Of a stretch of 64,000 bases of DNA, positions 2,622 to 16,923 are shown piece by piece. The notes beneath the pieces are model-generated. The model was not told where the DNA came from and searched no databases. It saw only the letters and a list, made by a program, of their open reading frames with translations. The DNA is from Brevirhabdus sp. Lineage in GTDB: Bacteria; Pseudomonadota; Alphaproteobacteria; Rhodobacterales; Rhodobacteraceae. Where the stretch lies: contig JAGXFH010000052.1 in the NCBI GenBank assembly GCA_024637315.1, positions 1 to 64,000 on the forward strand, read 5' to 3'. Numbering within the stretch: the first letter of the stretch is position 1; every line of letters begins with the position of its first letter. The position numbers and the translations under genes were made by a program.

Positions 2622-3722
2622 TCAGCCGATCCGGCCGCGGATGCCGCCGGTTTGCGCGCGGTCCAGAAGGATGTGATCCAGGATCACGCAAGCCATCATC
2701 GCCTCGCCCACAGGCACCGCGCGAATGCCGACGCAGGGATCGTGACGGCCTTTCGTGACGATCTCGGTCGCCTCGCCTGCGATTGTGATCGTCTTGCGCG
2801 GTGTCAGGATCGACGAGGTCGGTTTGACTGCAAAACGGCAGACGATGTCCTGCCCTGTCGAGATGCCACCGAGGATGCCGCCGGCATGATTGCTGCTGAA
2901 TTCAGGGCCATCGGGCCCCATCCTGATCTCGTCGGCATTGGCCTCTCCGGTCAGGCAGGCGGCGGCCATGCCTTCGCCGATCTCGACGCCCTTGACGGCA
3001 TTGATCGACATCATCGCTGCGGCGATATCAGTGTCCAACTTGCCATAGACCGGGGCGCCGAGCCCGGCTGGCGCCCCCTTCGCGACAACCTCTATGACCG
3101 CACCGACCGAACTGCCGGATTTCCGCAGACCGTCAAGATATACCGCCCATTCCGCAGCCGCCGTCGCATCAGGGGTCCAGAACGGATTGGCGTCGATCTG
3201 GTCCCAGTCAAAGCGGGCGCGCTCTATCTGTCGCGGACCCATCTGGACCATGTAGCCCTTGATCTGCATGCCCGGCAGCAACGCCCGGATCACTTCGCGA
3301 GCCACGCCTCCCGCGGCAACCCGCGCTGCCGTCTCTCGGGCAGAGGATCGACCGCCGCCACGCGGGTCGCGGATGCCGTATTTCTGCCAATAGGTGATAT
3401 CGGCGTGGCCAGGCCGGAACTTTTGCGCGATGTCTCCGTAATCCTTCGACCTCTGGTCGGTATTGCGGATCATCAACTGGATCGGGGTCCCGGTGGTGTG
3501 GCCCTCGTAGATGCCCGACAGGATCTCGACCTCGTCCGGTTCTCGCCTTTGTGTGGTGAACCTGTTCTGACCGGGCTTGCGCCGATCCAGCCAGTGTTGA
3601 AGCATTGCAGCGTCCAGCGATACGCCGGGAGGGCAGCCATCTATCGTTGCCCCCAGCGCGGGACCATGCGACTCGCCCCAGGTGGTGACGCGGAAGAGGT
3701 GGCCGAAGGTATTCAGGCTCAT
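2622..3722 (-). CDS. aroC: Chorismate synthase
   Basis: A 366-residue full-length chorismate synthase, the last shared enzyme of aromatic amino-acid synthesis, which converts 5-enolpyruvylshikimate-3-phosphate to chorismate using reduced FMN. Family signatures visible are the N-terminal [20 protein letters not shown], the RHDP block ([19 protein letters not shown]) near residues 318-336, and the central [18 protein letters not shown]. The ATG at 3722 gives the canonical start. It is transcribed leftward, divergent from the thiamine riboswitch, and convergent with the ccdA/thioredoxin pair. No unusual features are seen. Confidence 0.97.
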
Positions 3723-10832: not shown

Positions 10833-11440
10833 CCCCTTGGTGGAACAGTTGCCGCGAAACTTTCGCGTTTGGCAAAGATCATGAACCAATCTGCCAAAGC
10901 CTTATTGCCATTGCGCCAATCGCGGTCGGCGTGCCGGAAGTCGATATAGCCAAGCGCGCAAGCCACCGCGACCTGACCCATGTCGAGGGGACCGTTCAGG
11001 TGGCTCATCCAGCGCGAATTGATCGCCTCGACGGCGCGGGTGATCTTGGCCCACTGGCCGTCGACCCATTCGGGCAGACGTTTGTCCTCGGGCCGCACGC
11101 GCACCTCGTAGACCATAAGGATCGCCGCATCGAGAATGCCGTCCGCCGTCGCCTCGAGCGTCAGCGTGTCCCATAGCCGGTTGCCCTGGGGATAAAGCCT
11201 GCCACCGACACGAGCGTCCAGATAGCGGCAGATCACCCGGCTATCGTAAATCGCAGGACCATCGCCGCGTTCCAGCGCCGGCAGCTTGCCCAGCGGGTTC
11301 TGCGCCAAAGGCATGTTCTGCGGATCAAGCGGGGTGCCGTGGGCGGCAACGATCTCGACATCGTCCAGTTGACCGGTTTCATGAAGTAGCATCCTCACCT
11401 TGCGTGCATAGGGTGACGTTTCGGCGGAATAGAGCCTCAT
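10829..11440 (-). CDS. Glutathione S-transferase family protein
   Basis: A 203-residue cytosolic protein with an N-terminal thioredoxin-like GST domain (MRLYSAETSPYARKVRMLLH, with Ser near residue 9 as the likely glutathione-activating residue; NPLGKLPAL with the cis-proline; YDSRVICRYLD with the SNAIL-like loop) and an all-helical C-terminal domain. It may conjugate glutathione to electrophiles; the substrate is unknown. The ATG at 11440 starts the fold exactly; the longer frame to 11581 is not GST-like. It lies just behind the small hypothetical gene in a leftward cluster. Confidence 0.88.
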   Translation of the reverse strand: MRLYSAETSPYARKVRMLLHETGQLDDVEIVAAHGTPLDPQNMPLAQNPLGKLPALERGDGPAIYDSRVICRYLDARVGGRLYPQGNRLWDTLTLEATADGILDAAILMVYEVRVRPEDKRLPEWVDGQWAKITRAVEAINSRWMSHLNGPLDMGQVAVACALGYIDFRHADRDWRNGNKALADWFMIFAKRESFAATVPPRG

Positions 11441-11441
11441 T

Positions 11442-11726
11442 TCAGACCTTTCGAAAGCGGATACGGCCAAGCGCCGTGATGTCAATCTCAACGCCGGGTC
11501 CGTCCGCGCCAAAGCGCACGACGCGGCGAAACCGGGTGGTTCCGTTGACCTGCTCGGGGTGTCGGCGGACCGTGATGCCATCGGTCACGTCATCCATCGC
11601 CTCTTCGCCGCGCTGGTCGTAATGGCCCTTCTGAATGCTGATCCTGCGAGTCAGGGCATAAGTCGCAACTGCCACGGCACCGTAGCGAATCGCAATTCCG
11701 GCAATCGGCGCAAGCGGCAGGGGCAT
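11442..11726 (-). CDS. Small hypothetical protein with N-terminal membrane segment
   Basis: A 94-residue protein I do not recognise. The first 26 residues (MPLPLAPIAGIAIRYGAVAVATYALT) form one hydrophobic helix; the rest is polar and charged (VRRHPEQVNGTTRFRRVVRF) and ends ITALGRIRFRKV, with a beta-strand-like pattern. The ATG at 11726 has GGAGG 6 bp upstream. It is one base from the GST gene start, so the two are likely co-transcribed. The orientation with the helix inserted and the C-terminus in the cytoplasm is likely, from the arginine after the helix. Confidence 0.7.
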   Translation of the reverse strand: MPLPLAPIAGIAIRYGAVAVATYALTRRISIQKGHYDQRGEEAMDDVTDGITVRRHPEQVNGTTRFRRVVRFGADGPGVEIDITALGRIRFRKV

Positions 11727-11782
11727 CGTGACCTCCAAGGCTGAACTGTCCTTAATGTAGGAAGCCGCGAGCCCCAAGTCCA

Positions 11783-12406
11783 CTAAGACGAAGGCGGATC
11801 GGCCATCAGAGCGGCGATTACCTGCGCCTCCAGCCCGAACCCGTGCCGTGCGACATGGCCCGAGGCTGCGATCCGCGCTGCATCAGGCTTGTTCTGTGCC
11901 AGTTTCCAGGTGCCGTCGACCGATTGCACCTGCATCCGGAACGGTACCACCATTCGCATCAAGCGGTCGATCAGCTCGCCCGGCATCTTGTCGGCCCGCC
12001 AAGGTGGTTTCGGGGCCAGCCGCGCCTCGAAGAACTCGGTGAGGTGATCCAGAACCGCGCGCATCTCTTCCTGCGGTCGCATTTCCAGAAGACCGCGCAG
12101 ATGCACCGCGACATAGTTCCATGTCGGCACCTGATCGGGCATCTCATACCAATCCGGTGAAACGTAGCTGTCAGCCCCGGAAACAGCCACAACCGCCTGT
12201 TTAGGCTCTGATACGATCCGCACGATCGGATTCGAGCGCACAAGGTGCAGCGTCAGCGTGCCGCCGTCGTCGGACAACCGATAGGGGATATGCGAGATCA
12301 GTGGCGCGGGGTCGGCATTGACCGAAAGAACGCCAAAGGCCCGATCGCGGGCGAACGCGAGATTATCGCGGTCACTTGCGGTACGAAAGGCCGGGTTCGG
12401 ATGCAC
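11783..12406 (-). CDS. PaiB-type FMN-binding negative regulator
   Basis: A 207-residue protein of the PaiB/FMN-binding family with a split-barrel flavin fold. The N-terminal MHPNPAFRTASDRDNLAFAR block, the SHIPYRLSDDGG and HLVRSNPI strands and the conserved VPTWNYVAVHLRG segment (near residue 95) are diagnostic. In Bacillus PaiB was described as a negative regulator of sporulation and protease genes; in proteobacteria the role is unclear and may be enzymatic. Its start lies 3 bp after the stop of the LacI-type gene, so the two are probably translated from one message. Confidence 0.88.
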   Translation of the reverse strand: MHPNPAFRTASDRDNLAFARDRAFGVLSVNADPAPLISHIPYRLSDDGGTLTLHLVRSNPIVRIVSEPKQAVVAVSGADSYVSPDWYEMPDQVPTWNYVAVHLRGLLEMRPQEEMRAVLDHLTEFFEARLAPKPPWRADKMPGELIDRLMRMVVPFRMQVQSVDGTWKLAQNKPDAARIAASGHVARHGFGLEAQVIAALMADPPSS

Positions 12407-12409
12407 GGC

Positions 12410-13450
12410 CTAATGCCGCCGCAGGGTGTCGCCGAACTGGATTTGCGGGCTCAGCACGATCTTTTCGCCGGGGGCGGTATCGGGCTTTGCCACCCGCGTG
12501 GCGATGATTTGTGCGGCGGCGCGTCCAATCTCGGCCCGGCAGGCATCCATCGTTGCCAACCTGCGTGGCAGTCCTTTGAGCAACTCGACCCCGTTGAACC
12601 CGGCAAGCCCGATTTGCCCCGGCACATCAATGCCCTTGTCCAGGCAGTAAAGCAGCCCGCCTGCACCGATCATATCGTTGGAATAATAAAGGAAATCCAG
12701 ATCCGGTGTTCGCGACAGAATGGCCTCGGTCATTTCCCGGCCCTTGGCCAAAGCCGATCCGCCGGAATAGAATTCCTGATCCGCCACTTCCAGACCGGCC
12801 TTGGCGAGCGCATCGGTGAAGCCCTCGAACCGTTTGCGTGCCCTGTGATCCAGCGGCATCTTGGTGCCAAGAAAGCCGATCCGTTCATAGCCAGCCTCGA
12901 CAATGGCCTGCGCCATCTCGCGCCCCGCGCGGCGATGCGAGATACCGACTACAGAATCGACCGGCTCGCCATCGACGTCCATTATTTCGACAATCGGGAT
13001 GCCGGAGGCCTTCAGCATCGCCCTTGATGCATCGGAATGCTCCAGCCCCGCGATGATCACGCCCGAGGGTCGCCAGGACAGCATTTCGTAAAGCACTTTT
13101 TCTTCGCGCTCGGGCTGGTAGTTGGTGACACCGAAGACCGGCTGCAACGGTGTACCGTCCAGCACTTCGGAAATGCCGGTTAGCACCTCTGGAAACACCA
13201 TGTTGGACAGGGAAGGGACCATCACGGCGATCAGATTCACCCGCTGCGAGGCCAGCGCCCCCGCGATCTTGTTCGGCACATAGCCAAGCTCTTTCGCCGC
13301 TTCCAGCACTTTGACCCGGGTCGTTTCCGAAACGTCACCGCGATTGCGAAGCACCCGGCTGACGGTCATTTCGCTGACGCCGGAAGCCTCTGAGACATCG
13401 CGCAGCGTCAGTGTGCGCGGCGGCGGGCTGACGGGAGAGTTTGCTGGCAT
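12410..13450 (-). CDS. LacI/GntR-type (gluconate repressor-like) transcriptional regulator
   Basis: A 346-residue LacI-family protein. The helix-turn-helix (TLRDVSEASGVSEMTVSRVL, residues about 14-33) is followed by the hinge helix GALASQRVNLIAVMVPSL and a periplasmic-binding-protein-like sensor domain. The pattern (NMVFPEVLTGI, YEMLSWRPSGVIIAGLEHSD) is that of the gluconate repressor branch rather than LacI itself, so a sugar acid is a likely ligand. It is first in a leftward group with PaiB, a small membrane protein and GST. Palindromic TGTTANCG elements just upstream suggest autoregulation. No sugar-acid catabolic gene is next to it in this window. Confidence 0.9.
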   Translation of the reverse strand: MPANSPVSPPPRTLTLRDVSEASGVSEMTVSRVLRNRGDVSETTRVKVLEAAKELGYVPNKIAGALASQRVNLIAVMVPSLSNMVFPEVLTGISEVLDGTPLQPVFGVTNYQPEREEKVLYEMLSWRPSGVIIAGLEHSDASRAMLKASGIPIVEIMDVDGEPVDSVVGISHRRAGREMAQAIVEAGYERIGFLGTKMPLDHRARKRFEGFTDALAKAGLEVADQEFYSGGSALAKGREMTEAILSRTPDLDFLYYSNDMIGAGGLLYCLDKGIDVPGQIGLAGFNGVELLKGLPRRLATMDACRAEIGRAAAQIIATRVAKPDTAPGEKIVLSPQIQFGDTLRRH

Positions 13451-13484
13451 TTCAGGACCCCTGATCGTTCCCCATTATCCCCTT

Positions 13485-13543
13485 GTTAGCGACAAACATG
13501 ACACTTGTCCAAGCTAACCGGCGGTATGATGTTAACGCTAACA
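13485..13543. promoter_or_regulatory. Candidate LacI/GntR-type operators
   Basis: TGTTAACGCTAACA (13530-13543) is a near-perfect inverted repeat of the kind bound by gluconate-repressor-type LacI proteins, and a second element starting TGTTAGCG lies at 13485-13499. Both are within 100 bp upstream of the regulator gene, which fits autorepression. Confidence 0.55.
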
Positions 13544-13549
13544 AATGCC

Positions 13550-13590
13550 TCTGGATCGCGTGGGGTGCTTTCTTCTCCTGGCGATCCAGA
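13550..13590. repeat. Perfect 10-bp inverted repeat in a gene-free stretch
   Basis: TCTGGATCGC (13550-13559) and its exact reverse complement GCGATCCAGA (13581-13590) are separated by 21 bp, directly beside the LacI-type operator. The surrounding 13451-13970 segment (520 bp) holds no convincing gene; a 100-codon frame there has no family look. The repeat could be a transcript hairpin or a protein-binding site. Confidence 0.5.
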
Positions 13591-13970
13591 TCATGAGAGG
13601 GGGAGTGGTGTGCAAGAGTTCACCCTCGCTTTTCAGGGCCAGCAGACCCAATAGCCCGAGTCGGCAGACCTTCGATCTCCGGAACTCCTTTTCTGTCATC
13701 GAAGTCGCGATCATCAGGCGCGAGGTTCGGTATGTGTCCGCAAGCCACCCGGTCGAGCTTATGCAGGACGCCCATCATGCCGACGCCGAAAACACGCTGG
13801 ATCGGATTGCCCGGATCAAGAAGACCGGAGGGATCAGCAAATATTGAAACCGGAAGCTGACGCTACGGTAGACAAAGAGCCATGTGCTGGTAACATGATG
13901 GCGTAGGTTTTGTATCGCCGGTCGCGTTGAAAGCCCAAGTGCTAAGAGTCGAAAACAAGGAGAGTTTCCA

Positions 13971-14264
13971 ATGCAGACCAAGACGATTTGCAAGCTTGGT
14001 GCCGCAATCGCCCTGATCATGTCGGTCGCCGCCTGCGAGGTGCCCGCGCCGCAGCCCACTGCCAGGGTGGTCACACCAGAGGCTGTGCCCGCACCCAGGC
14101 GGGTTGCACCTACACCTGCACCTGCACCTACCCCTGCACCCGCGCCTGTCGTGACGCCATCTGTTCCGACGCCGCCGCCCTTTGGCGGATTCAACGATGG
14201 TGGAGGCGGCGGTGGTGGCAGTGGTGGCGGTGGCGGCGGCGGTGGTGGAGGAGGCTGGAGCTGA
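13971..14264 (+). CDS. Small lipoprotein with Pro-rich linker and polyglycine tail
   Basis: A 97-residue protein in three visible parts. Residues 1-22 form a lipoprotein signal with lipobox VAAC (cysteine 22). Residues 23-70 are a Pro/Ala/Thr/Val-rich linker (VAPTPAPAPTPAPAPVV). From residue 71 a tail is almost pure glycine, broken by one serine, and ends in Trp-Ser. AAGGAG precedes the ATG. The protein should be anchored in a membrane with an extended flexible arm. Its stop codon overlaps the start of the caspase gene by one base (TGATG), and its glycine codons GGAGGAGGC supply the ribosome-binding site for that gene. Function unknown; I know of no characterised relative. Confidence 0.75.
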   Translation: MQTKTICKLGAAIALIMSVAACEVPAPQPTARVVTPEAVPAPRRVAPTPAPAPTPAPAPVVTPSVPTPPPFGGFNDGGGGGGGSGGGGGGGGGGGWS

Positions 14265-16729
14265 TGGCCAGACCGTTCCCGGTATCGCGATTTGCCGCCT
14301 GCCTTCTGTCGGTCTCGGCGCTGGCCGCAGGGTCCGCAATGGCGCAGAGCGCTTCTGTTATTGATCGCCTGATCCAGAATTCGACAACGAACGCGCCGCT
14401 GCGGAGCATCGACACCAGCACACGGGCCTCGAACCGCTATGCGATAGTGATCGGGAATTCCGACTACACCGCGGTTCCCGATCTCAAGAACGCCATTGCC
14501 GACGCCCGAGTGATGGCTGAATTCTTCAAGGCGCAGGGCTATGACGTCCGCTATCACGAAGACATCTCGAAGCGCGGCTTTGAAGGCGTGCTGCGGAGAG
14601 TCTTGTTCGATGTGGATGAAGACACCGAAGTCGTCGTTTTCTTTGCGGGCCACGGCTTTCAGATCGGGTCAGAGAACTATCTGGTTCCTGTCGATGCCGA
14701 TCTTGACACCATCTATGACGTCCCGTTCGAGGCTGTTTCGCTGGGCAGTCTCGTCGGCATCGTCGGCGCCCGCGCGCGGCTTCAGGTGGTGATGCTTGAC
14801 AGCTGCCGCGACAATCCATTTGCCGGCAAGGCCGTACTGACCCAGATCGGCAATGAACTGCGCGAAACCCGCACGGGCTTTTCCTCGCAGGCAGCGCCGC
14901 TGAACTCGATGCTGATCTTCTCGACTGCCCCCGGTACGGTCGCTTATGACGGTGACGGCGACAACAGCCCGTTCACCGCCTCGTTCATCGAAGAGGTCAG
15001 CACGCGTCCGGATGATCTGGTCAAGGACGTGTTCGAAGGCGTGCGTCGCCTGGTCTACGAAAAGACCAATGGCCGGCAGGTGCCGTGGGACAGTTCGACC
15101 CTTATCGAACCTGCCAGCTTCGGCATTGGCGCGGCACTTTCGCGCCCGATCCTCGTCGATGGTCAGGGCGGCGGCGAATCCCGCGGCCTGGCGCGGATCG
15201 CGGAAAACCAGCCGCAATCCTCGTCGCCCACACGAACCGTGGCGGATGGCAATCTGGTCATCGACGCCGATTTCGTGCCAGAGGTCGAGATCGGAACTGC
15301 GCTGGGCGACGCGCTTGACCTGACGCCAGCCGATCAGGTGACAATCGTGGAAGGCCCCGAAACCGGGCGGCTGATCCTGACCGACGATACAGGCTTTCGC
15401 CGCAACGTCGCCGGAGAGACCCTTTCCAGCGCCGATATCGACAAGCTGCTGCTGGTGAACGAATCCATCCAGATCCCCGCCCGGTCAATGAAAGGGCCGT
15501 CGATCTTGGACGCGGTGACAGTTTCGGTGAACGGAGAGCAACAGCGGATCGCGGTGAACCTGATCCCGGATCCCTGCGATTACGAGGCTGGCGATCATCT
15601 TGATCCCGACGGCATGGGCATCACCCGGTATGCCAACGAGTTGGAGCCGGAAAAGGCGCTGGCCGCGTGCGAAGCCGCAGTTGCCCGCGACCCCGAAGCT
15701 GGCCGCTTCCACTATCAGCTTGGCCGGGCTCTGACCGCTTTGCGCCGCACCGACGAGGCCAAGGTGGCCTTCGACCGTGCCCGCGAACTTGGCCATTCCC
15801 GCGCTTGGAACGCGCTTGGCAATGCCGCGCTGAACGAGGCGCGTGTAACCGGCGGTCTTGCCACGCCGAAAGCCAGCGACGAGGTCCTGCAGCTGTTTGC
15901 ACGTGGCGTCGAGGAAGGCGATCCCTATGCCTATTATGCGCTCGGTCGTCAGTTCATGCGCTTCGGCGGCACCGATCAGATCGAGATCGAAGGTTACGAT
16001 CTGATGATGCGTTCGCTGGAGGTTGGTCATACGTTCGCGATGAACGAGCTTGGGTATTTCTACCTCGACGAAGATGCCGACTACTACGACCCCGAACGCG
16101 GCCTTCGTTACCTGCGAGAAAGCGCCGCCCGCGACGATATTTACGGCTTCAACAATATGGGTCTGGTCTATCTGCGCGGCCTTGGAGGCACCGAGGTCGA
16201 TTATCCCGCAGCGTTCGAGATGTTCACCAAGGCGGCAGAAGGCGGTCAGCCCGATGCGCCCTTCAACCTCGGTGTGATGTATCGCGACGGGCTGGTCAGC
16301 ACCGGCACGGATTTGAAGAAATCCGTCGAATGGTTCCTGAAGGGCCTCGAGCGGGGCGACTCGCTGGCTGGGGGCAATGCCGCCTACCTGATCTCGTCCG
16401 CAGGGGTGTCAGGATACGACATGTTCGACGCCGCGATGATCGGCGCCAAGGCCGCCGCGTTGCGCAACCGCGATGCGGCGCAAAGATCGCGCGACCTGAT
16501 CGCCTCCTATCCGCGCAACGTGCTTGATGGGGGCGCGCAGAAGCTGATCGTCGAGCTTGGCGGCACGATCGAGGTGGATGGCGCTTTCGGTCCCGGCAAC
16601 CAGACCGCGATGGATGAGGTTCTGGCCCGTAATGGCGCCGGCCCGGCTGAAACCGATCCGGTCGAGCGGATCATCCAGCTTGCCTCCGTCGTCTGGAAAG
16701 CCTCGCCGTTCCGCGTCGACCTCTACTGA
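14264..16729 (+). CDS. Secreted caspase-fold (peptidase C14) protease with Sel1-like repeats
   Basis: An 821-residue protein: signal peptide (residues 1-28, ending AMAQ); caspase p20-like domain (about 55-290) with intact catalytic histidine H130 in FFAGHGFQ and cysteine C181 in MLDSCRDNPF; a middle region (about 360-440) of beta character; then tetratricopeptide/Sel1-like repeats (about 455-740: FHYQLGRALTAL, AMNELGYFYL, GFNNMGLVYLRG, APFNLGVMYRDG); and a C-terminal segment with VDGAFGPGNQTAMDEVL, which resembles a peptidoglycan-binding-1 motif. The ATG at 14264 overlaps the lipoprotein stop and has GGAGGAGG upstream; the open frame continues 5' but runs through the lipoprotein gene. It should act in the periplasm. 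Bacterial caspase homologues usually cut after arginine or lysine; the target here is unknown. Confidence 0.88.
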   Translation: MARPFPVSRFAACLLSVSALAAGSAMAQSASVIDRLIQNSTTNAPLRSIDTSTRASNRYAIVIGNSDYTAVPDLKNAIADARVMAEFFKAQGYDVRYHEDISKRGFEGVLRRVLFDVDEDTEVVVFFAGHGFQIGSENYLVPVDADLDTIYDVPFEAVSLGSLVGIVGARARLQVVMLDSCRDNPFAGKAVLTQIGNELRETRTGFSSQAAPLNSMLIFSTAPGTVAYDGDGDNSPFTASFIEEVSTRPDDLVKDVFEGVRRLVYEKTNGRQVPWDSSTLIEPASFGIGAALSRPILVDGQGGGESRGLARIAENQPQSSSPTRTVADGNLVIDADFVPEVEIGTALGDALDLTPADQVTIVEGPETGRLILTDDTGFRRNVAGETLSSADIDKLLLVNESIQIPARSMKGPSILDAVTVSVNGEQQRIAVNLIPDPCDYEAGDHLDPDGMGITRYANELEPEKALAACEAAVARDPEAGRFHYQLGRALTALRRTDEAKVAFDRARELGHSRAWNALGNAALNEARVTGGLATPKASDEVLQLFARGVEEGDPYAYYALGRQFMRFGGTDQIEIEGYDLMMRSLEVGHTFAMNELGYFYLDEDADYYDPERGLRYLRESAARDDIYGFNNMGLVYLRGLGGTEVDYPAAFEMFTKAAEGGQPDAPFNLGVMYRDGLVSTGTDLKKSVEWFLKGLERGDSLAGGNAAYLISSAGVSGYDMFDAAMIGAKAAALRNRDAAQRSRDLIASYPRNVLDGGAQKLIVELGGTIEVDGAFGPGNQTAMDEVLARNGAGPAETDPVERIIQLASVVWKASPFRVDLY

Positions 16730-16847: not shown

Positions 16848-16923
16848 GGCCTCGTAGCTCAGGGGATAGAGCAACCGCCTCCTAAGCGGTAGGTCTCAGG
16901 TTCGAATCCTGACGGGGCCGCCA
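16848..16923 (+). tRNA. tRNA-Arg (anticodon CCU)
   Basis: A 76-nt cloverleaf with acceptor stem GGCCTCG/CGGGGCC (one G-T pair), D-arm TAGCTCAGGGGATAGAGC, anticodon stem ACCGC/GCGGT around loop CTCCTAA (anticodon CCT, reading AGG), T-arm with GGTTCGAATCC, and an encoded CCA. It is transcribed rightward 118 bp after the caspase gene. tRNA-Arg(CCU) genes are frequent integration sites. Confidence 0.96.

Follow-up and report, generated by a model that had tools for sequence, protein, structure and literature searches.

An exported caspase homologue and a lipoprotein with a tryptophan-tipped tail look like a two-part envelope protease system in Alphaproteobacteria

Results

Two overlapping genes encode a putative lipoprotein and an exported caspase homologue

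We analyzed a stretch of 64,000 nucleotides from Brevirhabdus sp. (contig JAGXFH010000052.1, positions 1 to 64,000; hereafter the window), which carries adjacent genes for a small putative lipoprotein, here called the partner, and a large caspase homologue predicted to be exported. An earlier note, made from the sequence alone, had described a lipoprotein with a proline-rich arm whose gene overlaps that of the caspase by one base. Both open reading frames (ORFs) are as described, with the lipoprotein TGA at 14262-14264 and the caspase ATG at 14264-14266. The features of the locus are as follows:

13957-13962, + strand: Shine-Dalgarno-like AAGGAG, 8 nucleotides 5' of the lipoprotein ATG, read from the sequence
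13971-14264 (stop included), + strand: lipoprotein partner, 97 residues, from the ORF reading
13971-14036, + strand: putative lipoprotein signal peptide with lipobox VAA-C22, assigned by eye; the lipobox pattern was also found by script
14037-14183, + strand: Pro/Ala-rich arm of the lipoprotein, about residues 23-71, from the ORF translation
14199-14261, + strand: Gly-rich lipoprotein tail ending Gly-Trp-Ser, with W96 (14256-14258) as the conserved element
14264-16729, + strand: exported caspase homologue, 821 residues, overlapping the lipoprotein stop by 1 base
14264-14344, + strand: putative Sec-type signal peptide of the caspase, residues 1-27, assigned by eye; model confidence is low for residues 1-29
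14435-15109, + strand: Peptidase_C14 catalytic domain, residues 58-282 (Pfam E 1.6e-35)
14651-14653, + strand: caspase H130, His of the catalytic dyad
14804-14806, + strand: caspase C181, Cys of the catalytic dyad
15254-15571, + strand: beta-rich domain, residues 331-436, poorly conserved, from model secondary structure and conservation
15572-16408, + strand: tetratricopeptide repeats (TPR; 437-530) and Sel1 repeats (531-715), conserved like the catalytic domain; candidate tail-binding surface
16409-16726, + strand: helical C-terminal domain, residues 716-821, PG_binding_3/PG_binding_1-like, with the end R-x-D-L-Y

Residues 77-97 of the lipoprotein, GGGGGGGSGGGGGGGGGGGWS, form its glycine-rich tail. 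A Pfam profile search matched no domain in this protein, which by its signal peptide and lipobox cysteine (VAA-C22) reads as a bacterial lipoprotein. Scanning the window for promoters and terminators gave signals near or under chance level.

The pair is kept in relatives through changes in gene order

Relatives came from a family survey of 394 genomes, 19 of which had a caspase match at E ≤ 1e-50 (own genome included), and from a scan of the genome collection, represented by the best 79 loci among the matches listed. At 95% identity, the non-redundant set comprised 78 caspases whose catalytic ORF is complete and two added by hand through their SGHA motif (L126 and L128), for a total of 80; the L066 caspase stops at a contig edge, leaving 79 of the 80 assessable for a neighbour. 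Loci with an incomplete catalytic ORF (L068, L089, L092 and L098) or a cut 3' end (L093) were excluded before counting. From the family survey we excluded partial genes (L009, L046, L047 and L050) together with L048 and L049, whose genes are those of L052 and L051.

Among the matches listed, 77 of the 79 assessable caspases have an adjacent ORF with a tryptophan in its last four residues, and one further neighbour ends in phenylalanine. The 77 comprise 76 found by script and L087, whose tail lies below that script's richness threshold; they include L065, from a metagenome-assembled genome, in which the lipobox part and the tail occupy two separate frames that were left unjoined. The excluded rows L093 and L098 nonetheless have a Trp-ended neighbour. 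The earlier note had proposed a two-gene module and a genome search for the pair, and had named absence of the lipoprotein beside most homologues as the outcome that would speak against it; within this caspase clade that outcome did not occur.

The partner gene lies 5' of the caspase gene in 48 of the 76 script-found cases, which come from Rhodobacterales and from the two distant genomes G523 and G540, and 3' of it in the other 28, from Hyphomicrobiales and a single Amaricoccus. In a quickly built tree with 85 rows including an outgroup, which has long branches and lacks bootstrap values, the 'upstream' label must have changed at least 3 times. Short spacing between the two genes is also found in relatives of the window pair.

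The pattern was also followed outside this set. A class survey found matches at E ≤ 1e-36 in 12 of 289 genomes, own included, with a partner beside two others, those of G540 and G523. A later sample, drawn once the pattern was known, covered 299 Pseudomonadota genomes, 25 of which matched at E ≤ 1e-33 (own included). Of the 20 loci hand-picked from them, 11 had frames of 670 residues or more and 9 had shorter ones. All six caspases ending R-x-D-[LV]-[FY] had a partner beside them, five by script and the sixth by eye. Thus, chance or an annotation artefact is ruled out by the 77 Trp-ended neighbours among 79, the single Phe-ended one and the six of six in the later sample.

A C-terminal remnant of the caspase stands alone in L009 (G001, same genus; 71% identical) and L050 (G272; 65%), and the flanking DNA examined around both remnants held no Gly-rich Trp-ended ORF. 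We count the lack of a partner where the caspase is so reduced in favor of a dedicated module. One contig of the set, WNWL01000001 (L095), is titled Oceanobacillus sp. HTM 045 and carries a Rhodobacterales-type module with a caspase that is a near-copy of G005:C292; it is probably mislabelled.

Other caspases examined lack the partner, and the tail end does not look like a genome-wide signal

None of 42 other caspase ORFs, taken from two 20-locus sets, had a Gly-rich Trp-ended ORF as immediate neighbour; one set was covered over the whole locus on both strands, the other on the same strand for close neighbours. The same was true of 14 loci with 1.5-kb flanks, which cover the near neighbours, and of the two other caspases in the own genome. 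Two control ORFs that are Trp-ended and not Gly-rich, L189 and L251, were flagged and rejected as partners. Four control caspases of the 42 come from loci in which a signature caspase with its partner is also present (L237, L238, L240 and L235).

Some loci hold a second, shorter caspase: it lies about 700-1,200 nucleotides beyond the lipoprotein in L237, L238 and L240, directly before the long caspase in L235, and on the lipoprotein's other side in L179 (G010). The shorter caspases of L246-L252 (family f159) themselves finish in a Gly-rich tail, with GRY, RRY, TRY or GGY as the last residues, which might be a tail provided in cis.

We also considered the tail end as a genome-wide sorting signal. 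There is a single GGGW[SGR]-stop match in the own genome, and 72 of the 394 family genomes have the pattern, against about 61, by hand count, for the reversed control, so such a signal is unsupported. Among 30 loci examined with this pattern, two encode Gly-rich-tailed lipoproteins: L152, in this window, and L132, which is paired with the G236 caspase.

The near-terminal tryptophan, rather than glycine, is constant in the partner

The earlier note had drawn attention to an almost pure glycine tail. Such a tail is present in the window, but the feature conserved among relatives is the Trp near the C-terminus: L035, L036, L053 and L094 keep it on Asp-, Pro- or Ser-rich tails, for which we rejected polyglycine as the constant, and several Rhizobium tails are Ser-rich. 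In the 76 script-found partners, the Trp is followed by no residue (15), one (36), two (20) or three (5), and preceded by Gly (55), Ser (18), Cys (2) or Pro (1). In these comparisons, what stays constant is a Trp close to the end of a flexible tail.

Other parts of the partner vary. The script found a lipobox pattern in 66 of the 76; of the 10 others, L177 and L178 resemble plain secreted proteins. Some partners carry a PG_binding_1 domain before the tail, and the four tested all pass its cut-off, one narrowly (23.8 against 23). Arg and Lys are absent from two mature partners, and in 64 others 7 to 82 residues separate the C-terminus from the closest one, so the data do not support cleavage of the lipoprotein at a conserved Arg/Lys. 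In the three close relatives L035, L036 and L037 an extra small exported protein is encoded upstream of the lipoprotein (ORFs of 106-138 residues, with AWRSDPAKTL or similar); the motif DP.KTL was sought in the ORFs of window positions 11001-15000 and was not found.

Some partner tails run into a putative self-cleaving S74 domain

In four Rhizobium loci (L101, L103, L104 and L105) and four plasmid records (L201, L202, L203 and L205), the tail continues into a domain beginning SDRRLK, of the S74 type. The junctions in these eight Rhizobium records and in G941, from another family, read W/SD.RLK or WG/SDRRLK, the slash marking the join. In Rhizobium the residues preceding the S74 Ser are GGTSW, DPGW, GGPSW, GGSW, SGGW or GGGWG; in G941 the junction is GGGGGW/SDIRLK. 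Relatives without S74 (L100, L102, L200 and L204) terminate at GGTSW or GGPSW.

In the four Rhizobium partners tested, the Pfam Peptidase_S74 match starts at the junction Ser, with a Lys at +5. Three of them score above the cut-off and L103 below it (17.4 against 22); SDRRLK is present in all four. This Pfam match and the Ser...Lys(+5) arrangement are shared with the S74/ICA self-cleaving chaperone domain of endosialidase and MyRF; here, by contrast, the domain is placed after a lipoprotein tail, where it would expose a Trp tip. MyRF is cleaved immediately ahead of the matching Ser, with this Ser and the Lys at +5 both essential (PMC8326128, PMC3742443). If the Rhizobium S74 domain cuts as that of MyRF does, the mature end would equal that of the other partners.

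On plasmid pRL11 of Rhizobium johnstonii 3841 (L200), the gene table holds no partner gene and places the hypothetical coding sequence RL_RS40040 (3311-3661) on the opposite strand; the partner ORF lies at 3315-3635 on the + strand, stop not counted. In the Rhizobium plasmids L200-L205, an isoprenylcysteine carboxylmethyltransferase-family gene directly follows the partner gene.

The caspase combines a paracaspase-like catalytic domain with conserved repeats

The window caspase scores 123.3 bits against PF00656, where the cut-off is 21.4, and is thus placed in the C14 peptidase family. The His130/Cys181 dyad that the earlier note called intact is present in all 78 aligned caspases, the window's included; the caspases of L126 and L128 keep the His within SGHA and keep the Cys too. 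The tetratricopeptide and Sel1-like repeats of the earlier note were likewise recovered, as TPR_19 and three Sel1 stretches by Pfam. At 40.9 bits against an NCBIfam cut-off of 140, we rejected membership of the EACC1-associated caspase family NF047832. PADLOC gave a single caspase match (25.6 bits), which we do not take as a sign of defence.

An AlphaFold2 model of the caspase built with 16 sequences had a mean predicted local distance difference test score (pLDDT) of 83.6 and a predicted template modelling score of 0.84. The nearest solved fold to the modelled catalytic domain is the paracaspase MALT1 (Z 26.5, 2.3 Å over 220 residues), a eukaryotic, cytosolic protein that is not known to carry Sel1 repeats. 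Sequence alignment pairs two acidic residues of the window caspase, D80 and D179, with MALT1 Asp residues that we take to be D365 and D462. MALT1 D365 and D462 belong to the P1-Arg pocket (PMC4357240). D80, D179 and D229 occur in all 78 aligned caspases; the MALT1 alignment covers just D80 and D179, and D229 as a counterpart of MALT1 E500 is a motif reading outside it. As putative S1-type residues, these acids would predict Arg or Lys at P1 for window-type caspases.

Across the 78 caspases, the mean top-residue frequency is 0.60 and 0.55 for TPR/Sel1 positions and 0.57 for the catalytic domain, and H589 and N594 in the repeat region are invariant. Since the repeats are conserved as much as the catalytic domain, a fixed ligand fits them better than a role as plain spacer.

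The C-terminal 106 residues were modelled at pLDDT 92.9. The earlier note had read a peptidoglycan-binding-like motif in this segment. The motif is weak in the window protein, whose PG_binding_3 match reaches only E 0.072, under the cut-off, but 15 of 16 aligned caspase C-termini match that family at E ≤ 1 (best 5.1e-8). When the domain model was compared with solved folds, the top VIA row was a peptidoglycan-binding protein at just Z 5.0, and Foldseek with this domain alone against the PDB returned nothing at E ≤ 0.001.

About 120 nucleotides downstream of the caspase gene lies a tRNA-Arg (CCT) gene (window 16848-16923).

Discussion

To all appearance the pair is a two-part protease system of the envelope that has not been described before, in which the tail tip is probably what the protease recognizes. 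We hypothesize, with a probability of about 0.5, that it forms a dedicated envelope protease module and that the Trp tip of the lipoprotein docks on the exported caspase. In our model, both products would be exported, and the lipoprotein would be held in a membrane by its lipid and, in some species, by PG_binding_1 too. The long flexible tail, rich in Gly, Pro, Ser and Asp, would present the Trp tip as a docking peptide, which the caspase would most likely receive on the conserved superhelix of TPR/Sel1 repeats or else on its C-terminal domain ending R-x-D-L-F/Y. Docking would bring a paracaspase-like protease to the envelope and might activate or silence it, in the way that lipoprotein partners act on Prc and CtpA. 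We infer the docking, the binding site, the effect on activity and the membrane concerned from a computed basis: the neighbourhood is kept despite changes of order, the Trp is near-terminal, catalytic and S1-type residues are intact, and the S74 junctions are placed to expose the same tip. The conservation of the repeats together with the kept tail tip favors docking of the tip on the caspase.

Several observations weigh against this docking model. The partner of L078 ends FSF, with Phe and no Trp, which is untidy for a Trp rule, and the Labrys caspase L090 has no adjacent partner (1 of the 79 assessable). The caspases of G523 and G540 have a partner yet lack the R-x-D-L-F/Y end, and their partners are predicted to be exported yet show no visible lipobox, which indicates that membrane tethering is not universal. 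With 0 to 3 residues after the Trp, a strict pocket for the C-terminal carboxylate is unlikely, and the likeness of the C-terminal domain to peptidoglycan-binding folds is weak.

The lipoprotein could alternatively be a substrate, whose tail the caspase recognizes and which it cuts, thereby releasing or trimming it. In favor of this, a protease stands beside a low-complexity exported neighbour in 78 of the 79 assessable cases (one Phe-ended), and dyad and acidic S1-type residues are intact in 78 of 78 caspases. These residues predict P1 Arg or Lys, yet no conserved Arg/Lys site exists (none in two mature partners, 7-82 residues from the end in 64 others), which speaks against a conserved cut by this enzyme; moreover, a cut in the body leaves the tip's retention through order changes and S74 junctions unexplained. 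We consider this unlikely. The Arg/Lys-type S1 pocket, which is not expected to bind Trp, also speaks against a ball-and-chain inhibitor, in which the tip would block the caspase until envelope damage pulls it off and activates the protease. The anchor, long flexible chain and bulky tip suit this arrangement, as do the 1-base gene overlap in the window with short spacing in relatives, and a self-cleaving S74 domain in some species would bare the tip only once processed. Some partners without a lipobox and one caspase without an adjacent partner fit it poorly, and we rate it a little lower again than cleavage of a substrate.

GPI8 and PorU are clan CD enzymes that act like sortases, and a short conserved C-terminal signal beside a clan CD enzyme would suit a sortase-like caspase that ligates its partners, or trims them, at their Gly-Trp terminus. 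Such a transpeptidase should have a set of substrates; none was seen, GGGW[SGR]-stop occurring once in the own genome and near its reversed-control rate in the family (72 of 394 against about 61), and the S74 variants would cut the end beforehand. Very little probability falls to this idea. Barely more falls to neighbours without contact, a periplasm-spanning lipoprotein merely sharing regulation with the caspase. The analysis gave no direct sign of contact, as this explanation would have it, but the same tip is retained when gene order is reversed and is not seen beside other caspases.

A new recognition scheme is also conceivable, which we put forward tentatively and at somewhat less than even odds: a near-terminal Trp on a disordered tether may serve as an address read through the TPR/Sel1 groove of an exported caspase. 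Within the Alphaproteobacteria it would have outlasted rearrangements of gene order and replacements of the anchor, and a self-cleaving S74 domain would, in two lineages, expose the tip only after folding.

The window caspase resembles prokaryotic caspase homologues (orthocaspases or metacaspases) with TPR or Sel1 in having a Peptidase_C14 domain with a His-Cys dyad; it differs from those surveyed in its Trp-tailed exported partner, its beta-rich insert and its peptidoglycan-binding-like C-terminus. The available part of that survey reports Sel1 in 6.0% (40) of the homologues, covers Sel1/TPR repeats on bacterial caspases as well as caspase operons, and in that part names no such lipoprotein (PMC3501461). 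The earlier note knew of no described system of this form, and our search of the open-licence literature likewise found no description of a caspase/Trp-tailed lipoprotein pair.

The proposed pair is also like NlpI-Prc and LbcA-CtpA in matching a periplasmic protease with a lipoprotein. In those systems the helical repeats sit on the lipoprotein, whereas in the window pair the protease carries them and the lipoprotein amounts to a tail in which Pfam recognizes no domain; the protease, too, comes from another clan. The NlpI-Prc type joins a helical-repeat lipoprotein to a CTP-family protease; the window pair, with a C14 protease, falls outside it. NlpI-Prc and LbcA-CtpA are each described as a periplasmic protease with a lipoprotein partner (PMC5686067, PMC8764530, PMC11021448).

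These findings bear on one exported-caspase clade, spread over several Alphaproteobacterial families, which gains a genetically fixed partner and an exact residue to mutate. Few bacterial caspases have known targets or regulators. The S74 variants amount to an experiment of nature that singles out the tail tip. If our model is true, caspase-type proteolysis would be linked to a lipoprotein tether, as with Prc and CtpA, in an unrelated protease clan.

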